Shown: positions 6,241 to 52,057 of the stretch, in pieces
How the letters are laid out: the number at the start of each line of letters is the position of its first letter
How positions within the stretch are numbered: the first letter of the stretch is position 1
Assembly: GCA_963681505.1 (NCBI GenBank)
Contig: OY811980.1
Span: forward strand, 1,689,595-1,753,594
DNA: 64,000 nucleotides
Direction of reading: 5' to 3'
Source: Eunapius fragilis
Lineage: Eukaryota; Porifera; Demospongiae; Spongillida; Spongillidae
Made by a program: the position numbers and the translations under genes
Notes under the pieces: generated by a model
The model's input: the letters and a program-made list of their open reading frames with translations, nothing else
What the model was told of the DNA's origin: nothing
Database searches by the model: none

Positions 6241-6732
6241 CAGGTGAGAAGCCATGCAGGAAACATGTTGCTTGTCACCTGGTGAGAAGCCATGCAGGGG
6301 ACATGGTGCTTGTCACCTGTGAGAAGCCATGCAGGGGACATGGTGCTTGTCACCTGTGAGAAGCCATGCAGGGGACATGGTGGTGAGAAGCCATGCAGGG
6401 GACATGGTGGTGAGAAGCCATGCAGGGGACATGGTGGTGAGAAGCCATGCAGGGGACATGGTGGTGAGAAGCCATGCAGGGGACATGGTGGTGAGAAGCC
6501 ATGCAGGGGACATGGTGGTGAGAAGCCATGCAGGGGACATGGTGGTGAGAAGCCATGCAGGGGACATGGTGGTGAGAAGCCATGCAGGGGACATGGTGGT
6601 GAGAAGCCATGCAGGGGACATGGTGGTGAGAAGCCATGCAGGGGACATGGTGGTGAGAAGCCATGCAGGGGACATGGTGGTGAGAAGCCATGCAGGGGAC
6701 ATGGTGGTGAGAAGCCATGCAGGGGACATGGT
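6241..6732. repeat. Minisatellite, 27-bp unit (GAGAAGCCATGCAGGGGACA core), ~16 copies
   Basis: Nearly identical units with no unique spacers between them, so it is a tandem repeat and not a CRISPR array. Two or three slightly longer units with CTTGTCACCT at the left match the single short array at 23,430-23,540 in copy B. The unit length is divisible by three and the array is open on the minus strand as a 9-residue repeat (TMSPAWLLT). Confidence 0.9.
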
Positions 6733-7704
6733 AGCCGTCACCGAAGCGAGGCGTTCGCGAGGCGTTCGAATGTAGGAAACGAAAGCCACGCTGCTCCACC
6801 GACCAAGTGCTTGGATCGTGGAGTCCTCGATGCCGGCCGCCGCGGCTGCTGTCGCGGCCCCAATCCTGAAGCTGTGGCCAGCGTACTCACTTGGGTTCAC
6901 CGATAGGGTTGCCAATGCCTTCCTGACCTCTGATATAAATCGTGGCTTTTGGAGGGGTACCAGATCCTTTGTGAGGAAGAAAGGCCCGGCGGAGGTGCCC
7001 CGCACCGCTATAAATGCCAGCGTTGCTGAGATGGGGCAGATGTCACTGTGCGAAGGACCGATATAGATATCGGCACCCGTCCCAAACTGATCACATTTGG
7101 CGAAGCTGAGGTGTATCTTTACTACAGATGGCGACGAGGGGTGGTTGAAGGAGATGTCACTCCACTTCAACTGGGCCCGATTGACCTTTTTGGAGGACGT
7201 AAGAAGTTCTCCGAGACGAAAAAACCCGAAATAGCACAGCGCCGCTGTGGCCCAATAGAGCTGCCGGTCTGCGTCATCGCACTTGGCCCAGTATTTCTGC
7301 AGGCCCCCCAGGATAGCGGGAGTGACTGGGAGGCGAACCTTCTTCGGCTTGCCCGATGTGGCCAGAACGCGCCTGATGCCCGCTTGTATTCTGTCCAACC
7401 GGGGCATGGTGGATTGTGTGCGAGGGTCCGGAAACCCCAGAGAGATCTGCATGCTTCGCACGGCGGAGAGGTAGGTTCTTATGGTCTGGAGGGATAGCTT
7501 ATCGTTAGCCAATACGGTTGCAAAGTAGCATAGCGTGCGCTCGGAAACGGGGAAAGGGGAAGGAATGCTGTAATTGTCACAGAACGTGAGGAACCGGCGC
7601 GTTCCGGATTGATAGGTGCGGTGGGTGGATTCCGCTAAACCCTGCGCATAGTAGAATTGAAGCGCGCTGTCCAATCCGGAGACAGCCAATCGAGGTCCTT
7701 GCAA
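6313..7704 (-). CDS. Tyrosine recombinase of Ngaro/DIRS-type retrotransposon, fused in frame to a 9-aa tandem repeat
   Basis: The recombinase part is about residues 1-325; in such elements it integrates a circular DNA intermediate by strand exchange rather than by an integrase. The C-terminal catalytic box HSFRIGAATAAAAAG with GRWSS and the active-site Tyr in SYIRTP is clear. The N-terminal SAM-like DNA-binding half (ESTHRTYQSGTRRF) is present. After residue ~325 the frame does not stop but runs into the flanking minisatellite, adding about 15 copies of TMSPAWLLT before a stop at 6313, so the native C-terminus and the element's 3' end seem missing. Its start overlaps the RNase H region, the usual compact order gag, RT-RH, YR. 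No methyltransferase domain was seen, which favours Ngaro over classical DIRS. Confidence 0.85.
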   Translation of the reverse strand: MQGPRLAVSGLDSALQFYYAQGLAESTHRTYQSGTRRFLTFCDNYSIPSPFPVSERTLCYFATVLANDKLSLQTIRTYLSAVRSMQISLGFPDPRTQSTMPRLDRIQAGIRRVLATSGKPKKVRLPVTPAILGGLQKYWAKCDDADRQLYWATAALCYFGFFRLGELLTSSKKVNRAQLKWSDISFNHPSSPSVVKIHLSFAKCDQFGTGADIYIGPSHSDICPISATLAFIAVRGTSAGPFFLTKDLVPLQKPRFISEVRKALATLSVNPSEYAGHSFRIGAATAAAAAGIEDSTIQALGRWSSVAFVSYIRTPRERLASVTATMSPAWLLTTMSPAWLLTTMSPAWLLTTMSPAWLLTTMSPAWLLTTMSPAWLLTTMSPAWLLTTMSPAWLLTTMSPAWLLTTMSPAWLLTTMSPAWLLTTMSPAWLLTTMSPAWLLTTMSPAWLLTGDKHHVPCMASHR

Positions 7705-9360
7705 AGCAAGGCGTCCAACAGCCCGGCCGGGAGGGGAGTGGGTGATGGGTCCGCCCCTTGTACCTGCAGATGAAAAATTGGGAGCACATTACGGGAGAGT
7801 GCGTCTGCCGCCGTGTTTTGGGCTCCGGGTAGGTGAGTACAATGCACCGTGAACCCGTGGTAAGCCTCGATGTAGAAGAGGCAGCGCATTAAGTGCATCA
7901 GGTGATCGACTTTAGAAGACCGCGATGACAGCGAAGCGACGACTGCCGAATTGTCGCAATGATAGGTGACATGGGCAGCGGCGGGCCAATGCGGTCCCCA
8001 GACGGCGGCTGACAATATATTATCGGCAGCATTTCCTTAACCGTGATGGGGAGTGATTGGGACCTCTCGTCCCATCGTAGCTGGAACCAGTGGAGGTTCC
8101 AGAAAGCCCCGCAGCCCCACGAACCGGATGCATCGGTGTAAAGCTGGTGGGGTGGACCAGCCGGGGGGTTAGTGAAACCGACGCCGTTCCATTGCTCTAT
8201 GAACACACGCCACCAGGATAGGTCTGCGCGGAACTCCCTGCCAAGGCGGATCAGATGATGACCGCGCGCTGAACCCGATATGAGGGCGATCATGCGGCGG
8301 AGAAAAGCGCGCCCTGGTCTGACGACTTTGCAGGCGTGGTGCAGGAGGCCTACGAGAGACTCCAGTTCTCGTCTACGACAGGTCTTCTTGTCGCCCCAGG
8401 CGCACAGCGACGCCTGTATCCGCGAAAGTTTGTCAAGCGGCAAGCGAATGGACCCTGCTATGGAGTCGACCTCGATGCCTAAAAACGTAAGCTGGGTGGT
8501 GGGGGCAACGCACTTTGCCACAGCTAGCGGAACACCCAGCTCGCGGCAGGTGCTCTCGAGTGTCCGGAGGTCGTCCGCGCACTGTGGCGAGCCAGGCGGG
8601 CCTACCACGACAAAGTCGTCGAGGTAATGCGCAACGTGGGACACGCCTCTGCTCCGAATGATCCATTCGAGCGCGTCCGCCAGTGCGTTGAAGATTTTTG
8701 CCGCCGACCGCAGACCAAAAGGCAGCATTGCGTCGCAGTACAGTTTCCCTTCCCACCTGATACCGAGGAGTGGACGGTCATCGGGATGGACCGGCACCAG
8801 GCGGTAGGCCGCCTCAATGTCGACTTTTGCGAGACGAGATCCCGGTCCCAGCGCGGTTACCATGGACACAACCGTGTCCACGGAGACGTATGACAACGAG
8901 CATAGGGCCGGGTCGATGCCGTCATTAACGCTATGCCCGGCTGGGAAGGAGAGGTCGGTGATGATCCTCCATTTGCCCGGGGTGTGACCCTTGGGAACCA
9001 CGCCGAGCCGGTTGCACTGCACGACGCCTGCGAGGCTCCGATGAAGGGGGCCCAGGATACGATTGCGTTCTAACTCTGACGAGATGAAGGCGGACACTAC
9101 TTCCGGGTGGGCGGCGGCGGAAGGCATATTAGCCGCGGCTGAGAGCAGCGGCTGCGATCGCGCGAATCCCACACGAAAACCAGCAGAGATCCCTTCGCTG
9201 AGATAATCCCGGTAGCGAGCGTCGCGGTGGGCTGTGAGGGCGGAATGCCATGCCTCGGCGGAGCCGCCCTTGAAAGCCGAAGTGTCCGCCCCGACCCTGG
9301 GCCGGAGGGGTAGGTGTGCCTGCAGCCGGACGAGGTGCCCGGTATAGAGGTATGCGTCTG
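7635..9360 (-). pseudogene. Reverse transcriptase - RNase H of Ngaro/DIRS-type element, frame broken
   Basis: The RT would copy element RNA and the RNase H would remove it. The RT core shows the YLDDFVVVG catalytic box, KWRIITDLS and LAKVDIEAAYR. RNase H follows with LYTDASGSWGCGA, then in a different frame CDNSAVV and the H-containing LPGAQNTAADALSR motif. The switch of frame near 8018, at an ATATAT-like stretch, indicates a 2-nt insertion that breaks the polyprotein between the RNase H halves. The longest uninterrupted frame is 7898-9172 and is not opened by ATG; the frame continues upstream to about 9360. The element is therefore probably not autonomous now, although the rest is well preserved. 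Confidence 0.85.
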
Positions 9361-9721
9361 TAATATCAACGAAGAAACATGCATGTGAACGTGCGTGTGC
9401 TAGATGGGGGGGGGGGGGGGCCTATCATGCTATCATCGTAGGTCACGCTCGTGCAGAGCGGAGCGATGACACTAAACCTAACCCTAAACCTCCTATGACC
9501 TACGGGCCCTGGACCCGCGTGGTCACCAAGGTTTGGTTGAAATGCGAGTGCGGCCGGATTGCAGCGGAATATGATTTGAAACGGATGAAATGATAAATAT
9601 GCAGGGATGAAATGAAAATATGCAGGGTATATGACATGCCGCGGGTGTATGATAAATATGCATGTGAGCGTATAGGCGATAGGCACATGGGCATATAGTA
9701 CACGCCAGATTTTTTATTTTT

Positions 9722-10516
9722 TTAGTTGCGTGAGTAGGGGTAGAAGGACGTCCCTCGCTGCCTGCCGGACCGGCATGTAGACGCCGGGTGGTCGCCCGAG
9801 CAGGAGGAGCAGCAATGCCTATATTTACAGGAGCTCGAATAGCATCGCTCCTTGTTAAAGCGCCGACACACCTCCTGCTGGCTGTTGGGGTTGGGTCGAA
9901 GAGAGGGTGCGTGTGGCGAGCTTAATGCGAGGGCATCTGGGCACGCCTCGCTGCCATGATGCTCGCTCAGGCATCCCCTGCACCTGGCGAGAGGTTTAGC
10001 CCTCCCAGCGAATGCCTCGTTGTAGAGCGACTGGTCCTCGGTGCCCCAGCTAAGCGAGCGGGATGCTGCCGCCTGCCGGCGGTATAACCGGTCGTATGAG
10101 ACCCATGCGTTGACATCGAATGTTCTAGCCGACCGGACTATGCGCCGCATATATGCCCACATGTCGGCGGCTGCTAGCGGGTACTTCTTGCAAATCACCG
10201 ATGCCATTAGAGAGTAGCATTCCACCCACACCGAGATGTCAGTAACGGGTGTGGACCGGCGGGGAAGTTTCAACGTCAAGCCGTGCGATGTTGCCTCGGC
10301 TGATGTATCAGGCAGCCAGGCCTCCCGCAGCAGCTCGTAGGTCTCTACGAACTCCATGTTTTCGATTCGCGCGATGAGCTTGCCTGGGAGGCGGCTAGTG
10401 AGCCCCGCAGAGACGGGCGAACCCTCGCACCATCCCAGCAGCGCAGACAACTGCTGCAGAGACGCGCCGTTCGGTTGGTTCTCGAAAGTTGGTAGCTGCG
10501 TCATATCTGGGTTCAT
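9722..10516 (-). CDS. Gag-like protein of Ngaro/DIRS-type element
   Basis: A 264-aa ORF encoded upstream of the RT on the same strand. The C-terminal third has a Cys/His knuckle (CRRFNKERC, then C-KYRH and CCSSCSGDHPASTC), as in DIRS/Ngaro Gag proteins that package element RNA. The N-terminal part is helical and has no named domain that I recognise. The ATG at 10,514-10,516 is the first in frame. GC content is clearly above the surrounding host DNA, as for the whole element. Confidence 0.75.
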   Translation of the reverse strand: MNPDMTQLPTFENQPNGASLQQLSALLGWCEGSPVSAGLTSRLPGKLIARIENMEFVETYELLREAWLPDTSAEATSHGLTLKLPRRSTPVTDISVWVECYSLMASVICKKYPLAAADMWAYMRRIVRSARTFDVNAWVSYDRLYRRQAAASRSLSWGTEDQSLYNEAFAGRAKPLARCRGCLSEHHGSEACPDALALSSPHAPSLRPNPNSQQEVCRRFNKERCYSSSCKYRHCCSSCSGDHPASTCRSGRQRGTSFYPYSRN

Positions 10517-31966: not shown

Positions 31967-38680
<6,714 letters not shown>

Positions 38681-45754: not shown

Positions 45755-48700
45755 ATGTCTGGCGGCTGTCTGTGCCTTCTTTTCATCTGCGCCATTCTGG
45801 CGTTTCTCCCTGTCGGCAGCAAAATCCTGTACGCTGCTCCCGCCCATGCGAGGAGGGTCGAAGGATCCTACTTCGTGCGCTCTCGCTCCACGGTCGCTTG
45901 GGACGAGACGGAATCCCTCATCGCCAATCTTCGCCACACTGTTAAAAAAAAGGTGCTACCGCAACACACTTAGGGGTGTTCGTATGGATATTTAAAAATG
46001 ACACCCCCCTGGGGTGTAGTGGTAACCGCTTAGGAGTGTTACAGCTAACACCCCTGAAGTGTAGCCAGAACACTCTATTGGGTGTTGACATAGGTAACAA
46101 TATCTCGTATATTTACCGTAAATTGATGGTCCCAACATAAATTAATATTAATAAACTATACAACAACACGTTCGATTGATTTTAATAAAATGGTGGTAAA
46201 TAAATACAACCCATAAAAAGAACACAAAGAAAAGTAGATGTCTTTTACACACTATAACGATCAACAGGTTGTTTCTCTGTTCAGACACTAGAAAATCAAG
46301 AAAACTAATAAAGGACAGGTTACAGTACGAGAGATATCTTACCTTAAATCTTGGGTGCATGCAGCCGTCACGTTCGGGAAGCAAAGGAGACCATTCTGTA
46401 ACAATAACAATGTCAGCCGTACTAATCGCGAAGCTTACCTCGAAAGCTTGGTAGGGCATGTCCATTTAGTCTTGTGAACTCTGGGGCGGGGCGTATTAGT
46501 AACTTACATGTTTCCTTACGCAGTGTCCCATATAGCGCGGTAGCGTACGCTGTAGTAGTCGGGCAGCACAGTAGTAAAAATTTTCTTTGCGTATATTTGG
46601 CAGTCTACAGAGAAGTGGAGTTATACAGGCATTCCGAACTGCTGCACTAGTATACTCACCACGAAAATATCGCCACACTCTCTCCAAAGCGCTCAACTTT
46701 TTTTTTTACTCGAACGAGGCATCGCTAGACGTGGTAAGATAACAACGTATAAACCAAGCTAAAAAAATACAATGCAAACATACCTTTCACAAACAGCGCC
46801 ATTTAAAGGGTCACGAACGTACGCGTGCTATTAAGGGTCACGCATGCGCAATGAAATAGACACAGCCAGCTCAATGTTTTTTATCATTTAAAAAAAAAAG
46901 CCTAACCCACAACATGGATTCAGATAAAAAGTGGATCCAATTATCACATCATGCTGGTGCCAAGCTCTTGGAGGGGGATGGGCTACGCTGCACGAAGGGG
47001 GCATCCCCGTGAGATGGGGAGGAGGAAGTCACTCAACCACGCCCATACAGTCACTTAACCAGTTCACCTACACAACCACACCCAGCCTCCTAGCCCACAC
47101 ATACTTACCAGCATGCCCACACATACGAACAAGTTGACCCACACTACCACCCTAACCAGTACACGTGTCCAGTGGACTCAGTGATTGGTTCCTCCCTCTT
47201 TCATGGGAAGTGAAGTGGAGGAGGAGGAGGGGGAGTCCTCACGACACCCTGGGAGGTGGTCATAGTTGTCATTGTCTAGACTGTGAGATCTTGGACGCAT
47301 GAAGAAAGCCGCGCCCCCAGATGAACTTCATGAAGAAAGGCTCTCAGAGGGGGGCATGGTCAAGTGGTGACAGTGGAGGGGGTATGCCCAGGTATGAGGA
47401 GGGATTGTTGGTGGAATCCTCTTTCGAACAGGCTCCGCTTGCTTTCAGAGGTAGAGGTGAGGGGTGCACGGTTGTCCACGTGGGTCGTGATGTTACAGGA
47501 GGTTCCTAGACTTTGCTGGTACACCTGGACCATAGGGCATTGCAAGGCAGCTGACTTGGAACTTATGAGCCTGAGGTTAGGAGGTGGCCAACACCTGTTC
47601 TCCTTGAGGGTGGAGGTGACGGCAAAATGAGGTTTATCAGGTCGTGTATCTCGCTCACATGTGCTAAAGATGATTTAACCCCATCCACACCAACTCCCTC
47701 CATATGCAATTAGGGGTAGGGATCCTTAGTCTTGGAGGTGGATGACCTCCGCAGCATCAATCCCTGTGGAGGGAGCATTGAGACACTCAACCACACCTAT
47801 ACAGTCTCCTAATCAGTTCAACAACACAAATATACCCACAGTCTCCTAACCAATATACACACACAACCACATGATCTCCATGGAGACCATACACATCCAA
47901 GTCACATGATCCCCTCATGGCTACCTTTAGTGATGAATAGGGTGACAGTCTTCTGTACACGTGAAATGAGAACCTACTCAGATATTGACTCACCTTTCAA
48001 TGAGATCACACCCATCACATGATCTCCATGGAGACCCACACATCCAAATCACATGATTCCCCCATGGCAACCTTCAGCATTGCCATGACAACATTTTTTA
48101 ACCCTGTACAGGCTAAAAAATGTGTCCAAACTCTGTCACTGGTAGCCTACCCTTAAAGCAGGTGGGTAGATTCAATTTCATCCAGCATATTTCATGATCT
48201 CTGCTGCATGAAGGGGGCTCCCCGTGAGATGGGAAGGAGGAAGAAGTGTTGAGACACTCAACCACGCCCATACAGTCACTTAACCAGTTCACCTACACAA
48301 CCACACCCAGTCTCCTAACCAGTATGCCCACACATACTAACCAGCATTCCCACACATACTAACAAGTCGACCCACACTACCACCCTAACCAGTATACACT
48401 CATGAATTGTACCTCAAGCTGCAGTACTAATGAATTAATTAAAATTAATAAAAAACATTTTTTTACTTACAGTTTAGTGGCACCAGCCCCAAACCTTCCC
48501 TGTGGTACAGTCCCTGCACTCTCCTACAGCATACAATCCCACCCTTAAGATGGTGGTGGGTGTGGCCTTACATGTCTCCAGTGGACTCAATGATTGGTTC
48601 CTCCCTCTGTCGTAAGAGGTGAAGTGGAGGAGGAGGAGAGGGAGTCCTCATGACACTCTGGGAGGTGGTCATAGTTTTCATTGTCTAGACTGTGAGATCT

Positions 48701-50772
48701 TGGACGCATGCAGAAAGCCATGCCCCCCGATGCCCTTCATGAGGAAAGGCTCTCAGAGGGGGGCATGGTCAAGTGGTGGCAGTGGAGGGGGTATGCTCAG
48801 GTATGAGGAGGGATTGTTGGTGGAATCCTCTTCCGAACAGGCTCCGCTTGCTTTTCAGAGGTAGAGAGGTGAGGGGTGCACGGTTGTCCACGTGGGTCGT
48901 GATGTTAGACTTTGCTGGTACACCTGGACCATAGGGCATTGCAAGGCAGCTGACTTGGAACTTATGAGCCTGAGGTGGCCAACACCTGTTCTCCTTGAGT
49001 GAGGGAGGGGGTGGAGGTGGTGGTGACATGAGGTTTATTAGGTCGTGTATCTTGCTCACATGTGCCAAAGATGATATCCACACCAACTCCCTCCATATGC
49101 AATTGGGAGTAGGGATCTTGGTCTTACCTCCGCTGCATGAATCCCTGTGGAAGGAGCGTTGAGACACTCAACCACACCTATGCAGTCTCCTAATCAGTTC
49201 AACAACACAAACACACACACAGTCCCCTAACCAATATGTCCACACAACCACATGATCTCCATGAAGACCATACACATCCAAGTCACATGATCCCCTCCAT
49301 GGCTACCTTTAGTGATGAATAGGGTGGCAGTCTTCTGTACACGTGAAATGATAACCTACCCAGCTATTGACTCACCTTTCAATGAGATCACACCCATCAC
49401 ATGATCTCCATGGAGACCCACACATCAGGCCTACCTTGAGCTACATGTGATAACATATGCATATGCGTCTTCAACATGAGTGGAGTCCAACACCTCTGTT
49501 TCGAGTCGACAATCCCACGGTCTTGCCTCAGTTCCAGTACATCCTACATCGTCTAACAGAATGGGCTCTGTTCCTTGTCCAAAGGTTGCTACTGAGAAGC
49601 TAGTTCCTCCTACAAACATTCAAGCATTGGCATATAAAAATACTTGTGTCTGACAATGTATTAAGTATATGTTCCCATGTCATTTTACTAGAGTGTGGTC
49701 TAAATAGAATCCAGATGGATTTAAATACACCTTTACTGTCCAAGCCGTGCTACTTAACATTCACTCTCAACACTACGCGGCATGCAAGATAATAAACAAG
49801 CTTGCATGCTGCTTGCATATTAACGCAATTACCGGTCACCTTTGTATAAACACCGCGCGCGGCACATACGGTACATGAACGCTGCAGGCAAGACTTCATA
49901 AACACAGCGAGGCTTTATATTTCACGTTGACAAAGCGAAGTTAAACATGCATGTATACAAACGCATTAGCTTCACGACAGTCTACAAATCCATACCGACG
50001 AACGCCCGGGTGCCAATGCCAGCGTATGTTAGACGTTTAGTACTAGTAAGTTGTGTGCGTGTATACCGTTAAGATAACGTTCGGCTTGCCTTTATAAGTC
50101 CAGATCGGCTGCCATATGTCATCTCGCAAACAACGCCCTCAATCCGTCAAAAGGTAATTATAAAAAAGGCTGGGAACCCCATATACACTCCATATATAAA
50201 AATACTGGGGTGTAATGCGGTAAATCAGTGTTATGATAGCACACCTTTATAATGTCTTAACACCCCATTATTGGTGGGGTATGTTGCTAACACCCTACCA
50301 TACTTTGCCTACACTCATAGATGTAAGCAGAACACCCTTGTGTGTTACCAAAACACCCCTGGGCTGTAACACCCCTGAGCTGTAACACCCCTCGGGCCTT
50401 TTTTTTTAACAGTGCAGAAGCATAACAACGCCAGTCTGACTCGCTTTGCCGCTCAGATAACAGGCAAAGCAAGGAATGTTGGCTACGGATTTTCAGCAAA
50501 GCTGTCCGAAGAAGCCTTAAATGAGGTGAGTGCATCGCGCTTTAGTTATTGACGTATCATTCATATAAGGCATGAAGTCATTGGGCAGTGATCATGAGAT
50601 ACATGTATAGAGCAAATAGCCTTATTTTATATTGCACTGATGGTCTAAGTGTTCACTACTGAGAGGTGCAAACCATACTTAGTACTGCATTTGCATTGGC
50701 CCTGACCAATGACTGCACAGGTCTGAAAGGACTATAGTAATTAATTAATAAAAATGCTTTATAGGAAAAGAT

Positions 50773-50810
<38 letters not shown>

Positions 50811-52057
50811 ATACTGTCGCCTCGCTCAAGTGTCAGCATTTATGCTACATGTCAGCTGACTATTTCTCTTAGCATAATAGCTAGTTCAATTTGTTAGTAA
50901 CAGCATGCAGAATATAAAGGGACACACCATCTCCAATTTTGTATATATTCTAACAAATACTTAATTTTGTCTGTAAGTGCATGTGTGTGTGCATGTGTGT
51001 GTGTCTTGTGCGCGCGCATGGTGTTTACGTATGTGTGCATGCATGCAATGTGCCTTTCATTCAAAAATTCTATCAGGTGTTGCAGCATAAAGCGGTGCAG
51101 TTTGTAGAAGAAGATCACGTGGTGTCAGTTGGAGATGTACTCTCCTGGGGACTGGCCCGCATCGATCGGACATATGAAGTGCTGGACCTAGCCGGGCCCA
51201 GCTATAGCCCGCCTTGCAATCTCACTGGTCGCGGCGTCGACGTGTACGTGCTGGACTCCGGCATCAGAGCGGGCCACGTGGAGTTCGAAGGACGCGCCAC
51301 GCTGCTTCCGGATTGCGACATAGCCGACCTTTTCTACGGGGAGCACCAGAACGGGAGCGACTGCACGGGCCACGGAACCCACGTTGCCGGCACAATCGGC
51401 GGGAAGGCGACCGGTGTTGCGCCGGGCGTCAATCTGTTCTCGGTGCGGATCGTGAACTGCCAAAACCAGGGGTCGTGGAACACGGTGGTTCAGGGACTGG
51501 AGTGCGCCTTCCAGCACATCAGCCGGCGCAACAGGCCGAGCATCATCAACATGTCCATCCAAGGTGACAAGAGCAGAATACTGCAGCGGGCGGTCAAGAA
51601 GCTGCTACGCCACGGGAGAAACGTCGTCGTGACTATAAGCGGCAACAACGTTACTAGTAGCCAAGACGCGTGTAGCGTTTCTCCGGCGTCGATTGCGGGC
51701 GTGGTCTCGGTGGCCGGTTCCACGGTCGCCGACAAAGCGTTCAACCTCACCAACGCCGGTCGGTGCGTCGACCTCCTGGCTCCCGGCAAGGACATCTTGA
51801 GCGCTTCGTCAACGTGCAATTACTGCTACGCCACGAAGAGTGGATCATCCATGGCGGCTCCTCACGTGAGCGGAGCCCTGGCACTCCTGCAGGAGAGATG
51901 CTCGGGTTTACCCTTCTGGAAGGCGCGACGCCATCTTTTGTCCGACATGGTCCTAGTTGATGCGCTCGATATGACTCCGATCTCGACCAGATTGAGGTCG
52001 CAGACGCCGAACTTGTTGCTACACGTGGGTGAGCGGATGTGCTCGCTAGAGTGTTGA
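45755..52057 (+). CDS. Secreted proteinase-K-like subtilase (S8 family), coding exon split by a 4.5-kb element
   Basis: Serine endopeptidase of the subtilase superfamily. Pieces are 45755-45936, 50417-50525 and 51077-52057. The first encodes a signal peptide (MSGGCLCLLFICAILAF) and the start of an inhibitor-I9-type propeptide; the second completes it (QITGKARNVGYGFSAKLSEE), and an ordinary GT-AG intron (50526-51076) follows. The catalytic domain has Asp in YVLDSGI, His in GHGTHVAGT, oxyanion Asn in SGNN and Ser in SGSSMAAPH. Without the insert the protein is 423 aa, a usual length for proteinase-K-like enzymes. The 4,478-bp insert (45937-50414) interrupts the first coding exon. The gene is either broken or spliced across the insert using AAG|GTGC at 45,952/45,953 and the AG at 50,416-50,417, which keeps the frame and adds five residues. 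Alternative: transcription of only the 3' part. Confidence 0.85.
47178..47300 (-). CDS. Possible cytoplasmic-tail exon, copy 1 (41 codons)
   Basis: Reading MRPRSHSLDN, then NYDHLP and a Ser run, ending GGTNH-stop. The copy in the second duplication unit (48,587-48,709) keeps exactly the same length and frame with only substitutions, which suggests coding. The tyrosine-containing acidic/serine tail would fit a receptor. No splice site was fixed for it. Confidence 0.35.
   Translation of the reverse strand: MRPRSHSLDNDNYDHLPGCREDSPSSSSTSLPMKEGGTNH
48587..48709 (-). CDS. Possible cytoplasmic-tail exon, copy 2 (41 codons)
   Basis: Paralogue of 47,178-47,300: MRPRSHSLDNENYDHLPECH, Ser run, then TTEGGTNH-stop. 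The identical frame and stop position between copies support a coding role. It lies downstream of the SRCR exon on the same strand, so it may be the last exon of that gene. Confidence 0.35.
   Translation of the reverse strand: MRPRSHSLDNENYDHLPECHEDSLSSSSTSPLTTEGGTNH
49435..49609 (-). pseudogene. SRCR-domain exon (second half) captured within the element
   Basis: Between an acceptor (GTTTGTAG|GA) and a donor (CTCAAG|GTAGG) lies a frame reading GTSFSVATFGQGTEPILLDD, then VGCTGTE, DC and a final C in VITC. This is the C-terminal half of a scavenger-receptor Cys-rich domain, an extracellular ligand-binding module common in sponge receptors. The entry phase (1) is the one usual for SRCR exons. 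The N-terminal half of the domain was not found upstream within the element, so this seems a captured fragment, though a longer gene transcribed antisense to the subtilase cannot be excluded. Confidence 0.55.
50773..50809. repeat. G homopolymer, 37 nt
   Basis: Uninterrupted G run in the intron of the subtilase gene. Exact length may not be reliable in an assembly. Confidence 0.85.

Follow-up and report, generated by a model that had tools for sequence, protein, structure and literature searches.

An apparently recent CACTA/EnSpm-like transposon insertion probably disrupts a subtilase gene in Eunapius fragilis

Going by the title of Menssen et al. 1990, splice sites in the termini of dSpm reportedly give rise to a novel intron in the maize A2 gene. 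That work is cited in two papers (PMC4219821, PMC8195511), the first of which notes that the CACTA ends of Spm at times resemble splice sites. Plant CACTA elements have a 3-bp target-site duplication (TSD) according to the available text of PMC4158355, and the available text of PMC1636069 gives 2-bp duplications, in 7 of 14 copies, for SmTRC1 and its relatives in the animal CACTA/TRC group. Introner families, whose insertions create introns, have medians of 30-654 nt in the accessible part of PMC9860276. Here we analyzed a 64,000-nt stretch of the Eunapius fragilis genome, called the window (contig OY811980.1, G000:C10:1689595-1753594), in which a 4,478-bp CACTA/EnSpm-like DNA transposon at 45937-50414 interrupts exon 1 of a subtilase gene. 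The element is most likely a non-autonomous transposon that inserted recently and disrupts the gene.

The element has inverted ends (CACTG...CAGTG) and is flanked by a CA duplication, the left copy of which lies at 45935-45936. The left terminal inverted repeat (TIR), CACTGTTAAAAAAAAGG, spans 45937-45953 on the plus strand and contains eight A residues. The right TIR at 50397-50414 on the minus strand is the 9-A version with the reverse complement CACTGTTAAAAAAAAAGG. The 5′ part of subtilase exon 1 (45755-45936, plus strand) runs from the start codon to the insertion and encodes a hydrophobic start, signal-peptide-like by eye, followed by the prodomain region. The 3′ part (50417-50525, plus strand) continues the same frame once one CA is dropped and ends at the strong donor GAG|GTGAGT. 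The flanks joined in this way form a continuous subtilase frame reading ...SLIANLRQKHNNASL.... The homologue P0004 (417 aa) is uninterrupted over the matching exon (...SLIASLRQKHEDTSL...) and has the same Q at the insertion codon, and the homologue P0121 (130 aa) likewise has an uninterrupted exon (...SLIAALHQKNDNASL...). P0004 contains PF05922 (inhibitor I9) at residues 64-111 and PF00082 (peptidase S8), and the insertion point corresponds to its Q58. These homologues bear out the proposal of an initial annotation that a transposon sits within an exon, and its ends, coordinates, CA duplication, and restored flank frame were all confirmed when the junction was re-read.

Downstream of exon 1 is an apparent genuine intron of the subtilase gene (50526-51076, plus strand), and P0004 reads straight across the exon junction. 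Exon 2 (51077-52057, plus strand) has an intact frame that encodes the peptidase S8 domain (PF00082, 5e-35), in which the catalytic motifs of D, H, and S were all located. The best solved relatives of the gene are a keratinase, aqualysin, proteinase-K-like enzymes, and PCSK9. A 37-bp G run lies within the apparent true intron at 50773-50809.

CACTA/EnSpm elements are recognized by inverted ends that start with CACT(A/G), and both ends of the window element read CACTGTTA8-9GG. The short 2-3-bp duplication and the subterminal repeat arrays of this class are also present. AACACC occurs six times in the last 300 bp, whereas the first 300 bp hold two GGTGTT and one AACACC; the 3,878-bp middle contains no GGTGTT and four AACACC, the left array being sparse by these raw counts. 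The classification of the family as CACTA-like is based on its ends, TSD, and subterminal repeats. The fetched family ends continue after the eight A residues as GGTGTTA 35 times and GGTGCTA 3 times, with a few ends counted twice, in two loci. The element contains an internal direct duplication (46998-49426, plus strand; direct-repeat families D1-D11) with a spacing of mostly about 1.2-1.4 kb. The longest open reading frame (ORF) wholly inside the element is 132 aa, and by this length it is taken as non-autonomous. The ends of the window subfamily are 72-76% alike to the ends of a 9.2-kb element, L091. A 5.3-kb type, represented by L015, is 96-98% identical to L091 over long matches and lacks the 3.5-8.0-kb part of L091, though it has about 0.6 kb of sequence peculiar to it. 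The 3.5-8.0-kb part of L091 contains several ORFs, one with C2H2 fingers.

The search for the 17-bp terminal repeats that the initial annotation had suggested covered 219 Mb in 24 contigs and recovered a family. Exact ends numbered 67 for the 8-A form and 63 for the 9-A form, and the 8-A pattern with at most one mismatch was found 152 times genome-wide versus 5 times for a reversed control pattern. Copies were defined by pairing 141 listed, near-exact ends within 10.5 kb, which left 53 ends unpaired and gave at least 44 copies of 3,086-10,265 bp; the count is a lower bound, one-mismatch ends having been listed only up to contig C3. All 44 junction pairs were read, 21 as full copies (the window included) and 23 as flanks of about 0.5 kb, three of them later as whole copies. 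A perfect 2-bp TSD was present in 41 of the 44. The duplication was CA, TG, or TA in 33 of these 41 (background 22%, p = 5e-15). Three loci on contig C1 (near 776, 810, and 857 kb) have nearly identical 180-bp spacers between outward-facing element ends, which suggests a locally duplicated segment.

The window copy is identical to the copy at C12:4028376-4032853 over 4478/4478 bases and differs from copies on C4 and C9 by 22 and 86 substitutions, respectively. Two other copies (L015 and L021) are 99.96% alike. Judged by these comparisons the element family is recently mobile, and its exact age is something we infer. Since there are zero differences to the C12 copy, the window insertion is probably very young. 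The event would have been a cut-and-paste insertion with transposase supplied by related longer elements of the 9.2-kb type. An in-frame stop for read-through from exon 1 is located at 45971-45973, and transcripts that read into the element would terminate there with loss of function. Splicing from 45952 to 50413, the terminal pair with the best scores, would produce a frameshift. Some transcripts may be spliced through the element, and a minority of these may stay in frame through a TSD-derived CAG.

Several observations weigh against a disruption of this kind. The rest of the subtilase gene is intact and keeps all three catalytic motifs, a state that would fit a spliced allele too, but decay is hardly to be expected with so young-looking an element. 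The seven best relatives of the subtilase in its own genome are just 37-38% identical, and thus no close copy backs the gene up. The acceptor in the right TIR, TTTTTTTTTAACAG (T9-AACAG), is strong, ranking at the 99.6th percentile of 3,836 AG dinucleotides in the window when scored with generic splice matrices, by which acceptor scores are a rough guide. On the side of the transposon, no transposase model reached the cut-off in a Pfam search of the ORF pieces of L091, where the only transposase-like match was Plavaka (E = 0.13, below the cut-off), beside DUF1258 (E = 0.059). Of 305 candidate stretches for Transposase_21 (PF02992) in the genome, 150 were scored as matches; many of these have long open frames, and none of those listed falls in L091.

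The alternative that survives best is leaky or cryptic splicing, in which the TIR acceptor (ending at 50412 or 50417) would be used with various weak donors of the element or host to yield mostly frameshifted and some in-frame mRNAs, a hypomorphic outcome. The acceptor-like module at 50380-50412 on the plus strand consists of TGTAAC (a possible branch point with its A at 50385), T9 (50399-50407), and AACAG ending at 50412. TGTAAC lies 27 nt upstream of the last base of the acceptor and is a branch-point candidate by pattern only. On the other strand, CACTGTT-A8/9 is necessarily T8/9-AACAG-TG, and therefore an acceptor-like sequence lies downstream in both orientations. The intron-like look of the right end thus follows from the CACTA-type end sequence itself. 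The donor side is poorer. Scores are low for the candidate donors near the left end, of which the donor-like AAG|GTGCTA (45950-45958, plus strand) ranks highest, at the 84th percentile of 4,090 window GT dinucleotides. It resembles the subterminal GGTGTT motif of the family, and its bases +4 to +6 are off the usual consensus. GTGCTA lies just beyond the shared repeat at the left end only, the right end going on as GGCCCG, and the two ends are therefore not interchangeable as donors. This corrects the initial annotation, in which the terminal sequence could serve as donor in one orientation and acceptor in the other. The subtilase gene's own donor at 50525 ranks at the 99.98th percentile and its own acceptor at just the 66.5th, a reason for caution with acceptor scores. 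Mimicry of splice sites by the CACTA ends of Spm, as described in the accessible part of PMC4219821, also favors leaky splicing, which we hold to be a tentative possibility.

A stricter alternative is that the element acts as a ready-made intron, spliced from 45952 (AAG|GTGCTA) to the CAG ending at 50417, with the protein gaining five residues and the gene working. This CAG (50415-50417, plus strand) is formed by the right CA duplication and the host G and is a weaker, frame-keeping acceptor candidate at the 88.9th percentile of window AGs. The junction 45952/50418 keeps the frame and replaces one codon by six (Q to HTVKKK), as originally proposed. Splicing from donor position +16 to the TIR acceptor adds 16 + 2 + 2 = 20 nt and was in frame at 0 of 133 simulated sites per orientation; because the two terminal signals add 20 nt, they are never in frame. 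Splicing from the same donor to the CAG of a CA+G target adds 16 − 1 = 15 nt, which keeps the frame in every phase provided that no stop is created, and 12 of 12 CAG sites had an in-frame pair in the sense simulation. G follows CA in 14 of the 22 insertions with CA or TG duplications (background 21%, p = 2e-5), and this target preference for CA+G supplies a second acceptor candidate beside the TIR acceptor. CAG lies directly past the element end in 7 of 41 copies in the element orientation and in 7 of 41 on the other strand.

The intact catalytic motifs and the maize En/Spm precedent, as worded in the title of Menssen 1990, are consistent with such an intron. Its donor, however, has only the 84th-percentile score, the frame-keeping pair requires both a host G after CA and the weaker AG, and the best-scoring AACAG 5 nt upstream (99.6th percentile) is out of frame with the donor. 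Nor is there support for seeing frame conservation as something special to the element. In the simulation on exon 2, at least one in-frame, stop-free GT-AG pair was available at 80 of 133 CA/TG/TA sites for sense insertions and at 100 of 133 for antisense insertions, and the three host-type exons examined each had an in-frame pair, always with weak or ordinary donors. The frequency of these pairs means that in-frame splice sites are expected by default. A search for processed scars of the proposed donor found no genomic CACTGTTAAAAAAAAG followed by a non-G base, scars with G as the next exon base being invisible to this search; as evidence on splicing this negative is weak. Among the 120 matches listed of 2895 in a full-database protein search with exon 2, none was a full-length protein that matched the window gene identically, the sole identical match being a 358-aa ORF encoded by the window itself. 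Searching with the N-terminal part of P0004 recovered P0121 alone, a 73% relative, and says nothing on an empty allele of the subtilase because the interrupted 72-aa frame also went unfound. Functional splicing of this kind is improbable. The extension to a proto-introner caught early is quite improbable; here a recently active CACTA-like family would carry a complete acceptor module in its TIR in both orientations, its sense insertions at CA+G (7 of 41) would splice with 15 nt added in any phase barring stops, and the subtilase allele would be expressed in this way.

It is highly improbable that the family as a whole behaves as an introner, creating introns across the genome wherever it inserts. 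The acceptor in the TIR, the 2-bp TSD, and the enrichment of CAG beside the TSD agree with this idea, and the landing sites, lengths, and scars oppose it. Recognizable host-type genes hold 3 of the 44 copies, retroelement frames hold 5 (L010, L017, L022, L043, and L071), and the remaining 36 are unassigned, Pfam having been run on 20 of the 42 flank pieces that reach 60 aa. From these landing counts there is no sign of exon targeting among the 44 paired copies, judged without the exon fraction of the genome. The shortest paired copy is 3,086 bp versus the introner family medians of 30-654 nt (PMC9860276, accessible part), no introner-sized relatives with near-exact ends were paired under 3 kb, and no splice scars with a non-G next base were found. 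The suggestion that the family is an introner is therefore not supported. Copies in exons of other genes, which the initial annotation had proposed to look for, were found in a pectinacetylesterase (L015, C1:22832299-22837640) and a MurA gene (L021), and together with the subtilase they are the only host-type cases recognized. An assembly artefact at the junction is extremely improbable, the TIRs, TSD, and frame being exact and 40 other paired copies having a perfect 2-bp TSD at other sites.

P0122, a protein with PF03283, shares 98% identity with the 5′ piece of the interrupted pectinacetylesterase, whose 3′ piece alone is below the Pfam cut-off. P0122 was considered as an empty allele of this gene from another individual and rejected, its 100% match at C1:22784994 identifying it as a tandem paralogue. 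The cluster at G000:C1:22784994-22887240 contains four near-identical pectinacetylesterase-like genes, 96-100% identical to P0122, of which two are uninterrupted, one has stops, and one carries the element. The uninterrupted siblings thus provide empty sites in the same genome, and redundancy there. The bacterial-type MurA frame (L021, G000:C3:9820081-9830079, at 7672-8868; 399 aa past the insertion, TIGR01072 496 bits) sits on a 14.9-Mb eukaryote contig, a possible case of horizontal transfer, and a 5,340-bp sister element interrupts it close to the start. Among the retroelement cases, the reverse-transcriptase match of L010 is below the cut-off, and L043 and L071 have zinc-knuckle matches above and protease matches below it, L071 also matching SCAN. 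L010 (G000:C1:6732086-6742084) has two family ends 185 bp apart in one reverse-transcriptase-like frame, equal to two insertions in one retroelement. The frame pair flanking L065 is ROC/STAND NTPase-like by eye, had no Pfam match above the cut-off, and was therefore kept out of the host-gene count. Two further copies, L029 and L059, have a retroelement-like look by eye and were left unassigned.

Elsewhere in the window, three minus-strand ORFs at 6313-10516 are tyrosine-recombinase retroelement-like by eye, and the one that resembles a recombinase terminates in tandem copies of TMSPAWLLT. A minisatellite at 33367-34383 is open in several frames (GDGSTHCT / LYTLHRGW repeats).

If the element is spliced, the locus would show, at an age near zero, how an entire multi-kilobase transposon becomes an intron by means of its own terminal repeat, and the sister copies in other exons would serve as replicates. 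If it is not spliced, the locus is an ordinary young disruption and a useful caution. With the end sequence of this family, strong acceptor-like ends and an in-frame GT-AG pair are the default, and alone they do not indicate an introner. No paper describing the family was found in the literature on introners in sponges, or on introners and DNA transposons in animals since 2022, judged by title and the start of the abstract.

Comparison with the described systems is based on the accessible parts of the papers cited. Like dSpm in maize A2, the window element has CACTA-type ends inside a gene, but splicing is reported for maize En/Spm, whereas the window element is known from its sequence alone, and the plant TSD is 3 bp versus 2 bp here (PMC4158355). 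SmTRC1 resembles the window family as a DNA transposon with inverted ends and 2-bp duplications, but the animal TRC ends reportedly display a CCC core in place of CACTG, and the Transposase_21 domain reported for SmTRC1 was not detected in the related L091 (PMC1636069). The window element differs from introners in its length of about 4.5 kb versus medians of 30-654 nt and in the dispersal of its family in retroelements as well (PMC9860276). It shares with them the state of a DNA transposon with TIRs and a TSD in an exon and one acceptor candidate partly supplied by the TSD, and its splicing would add codons to the host gene, as in the Aureococcus example (PMC9860276).

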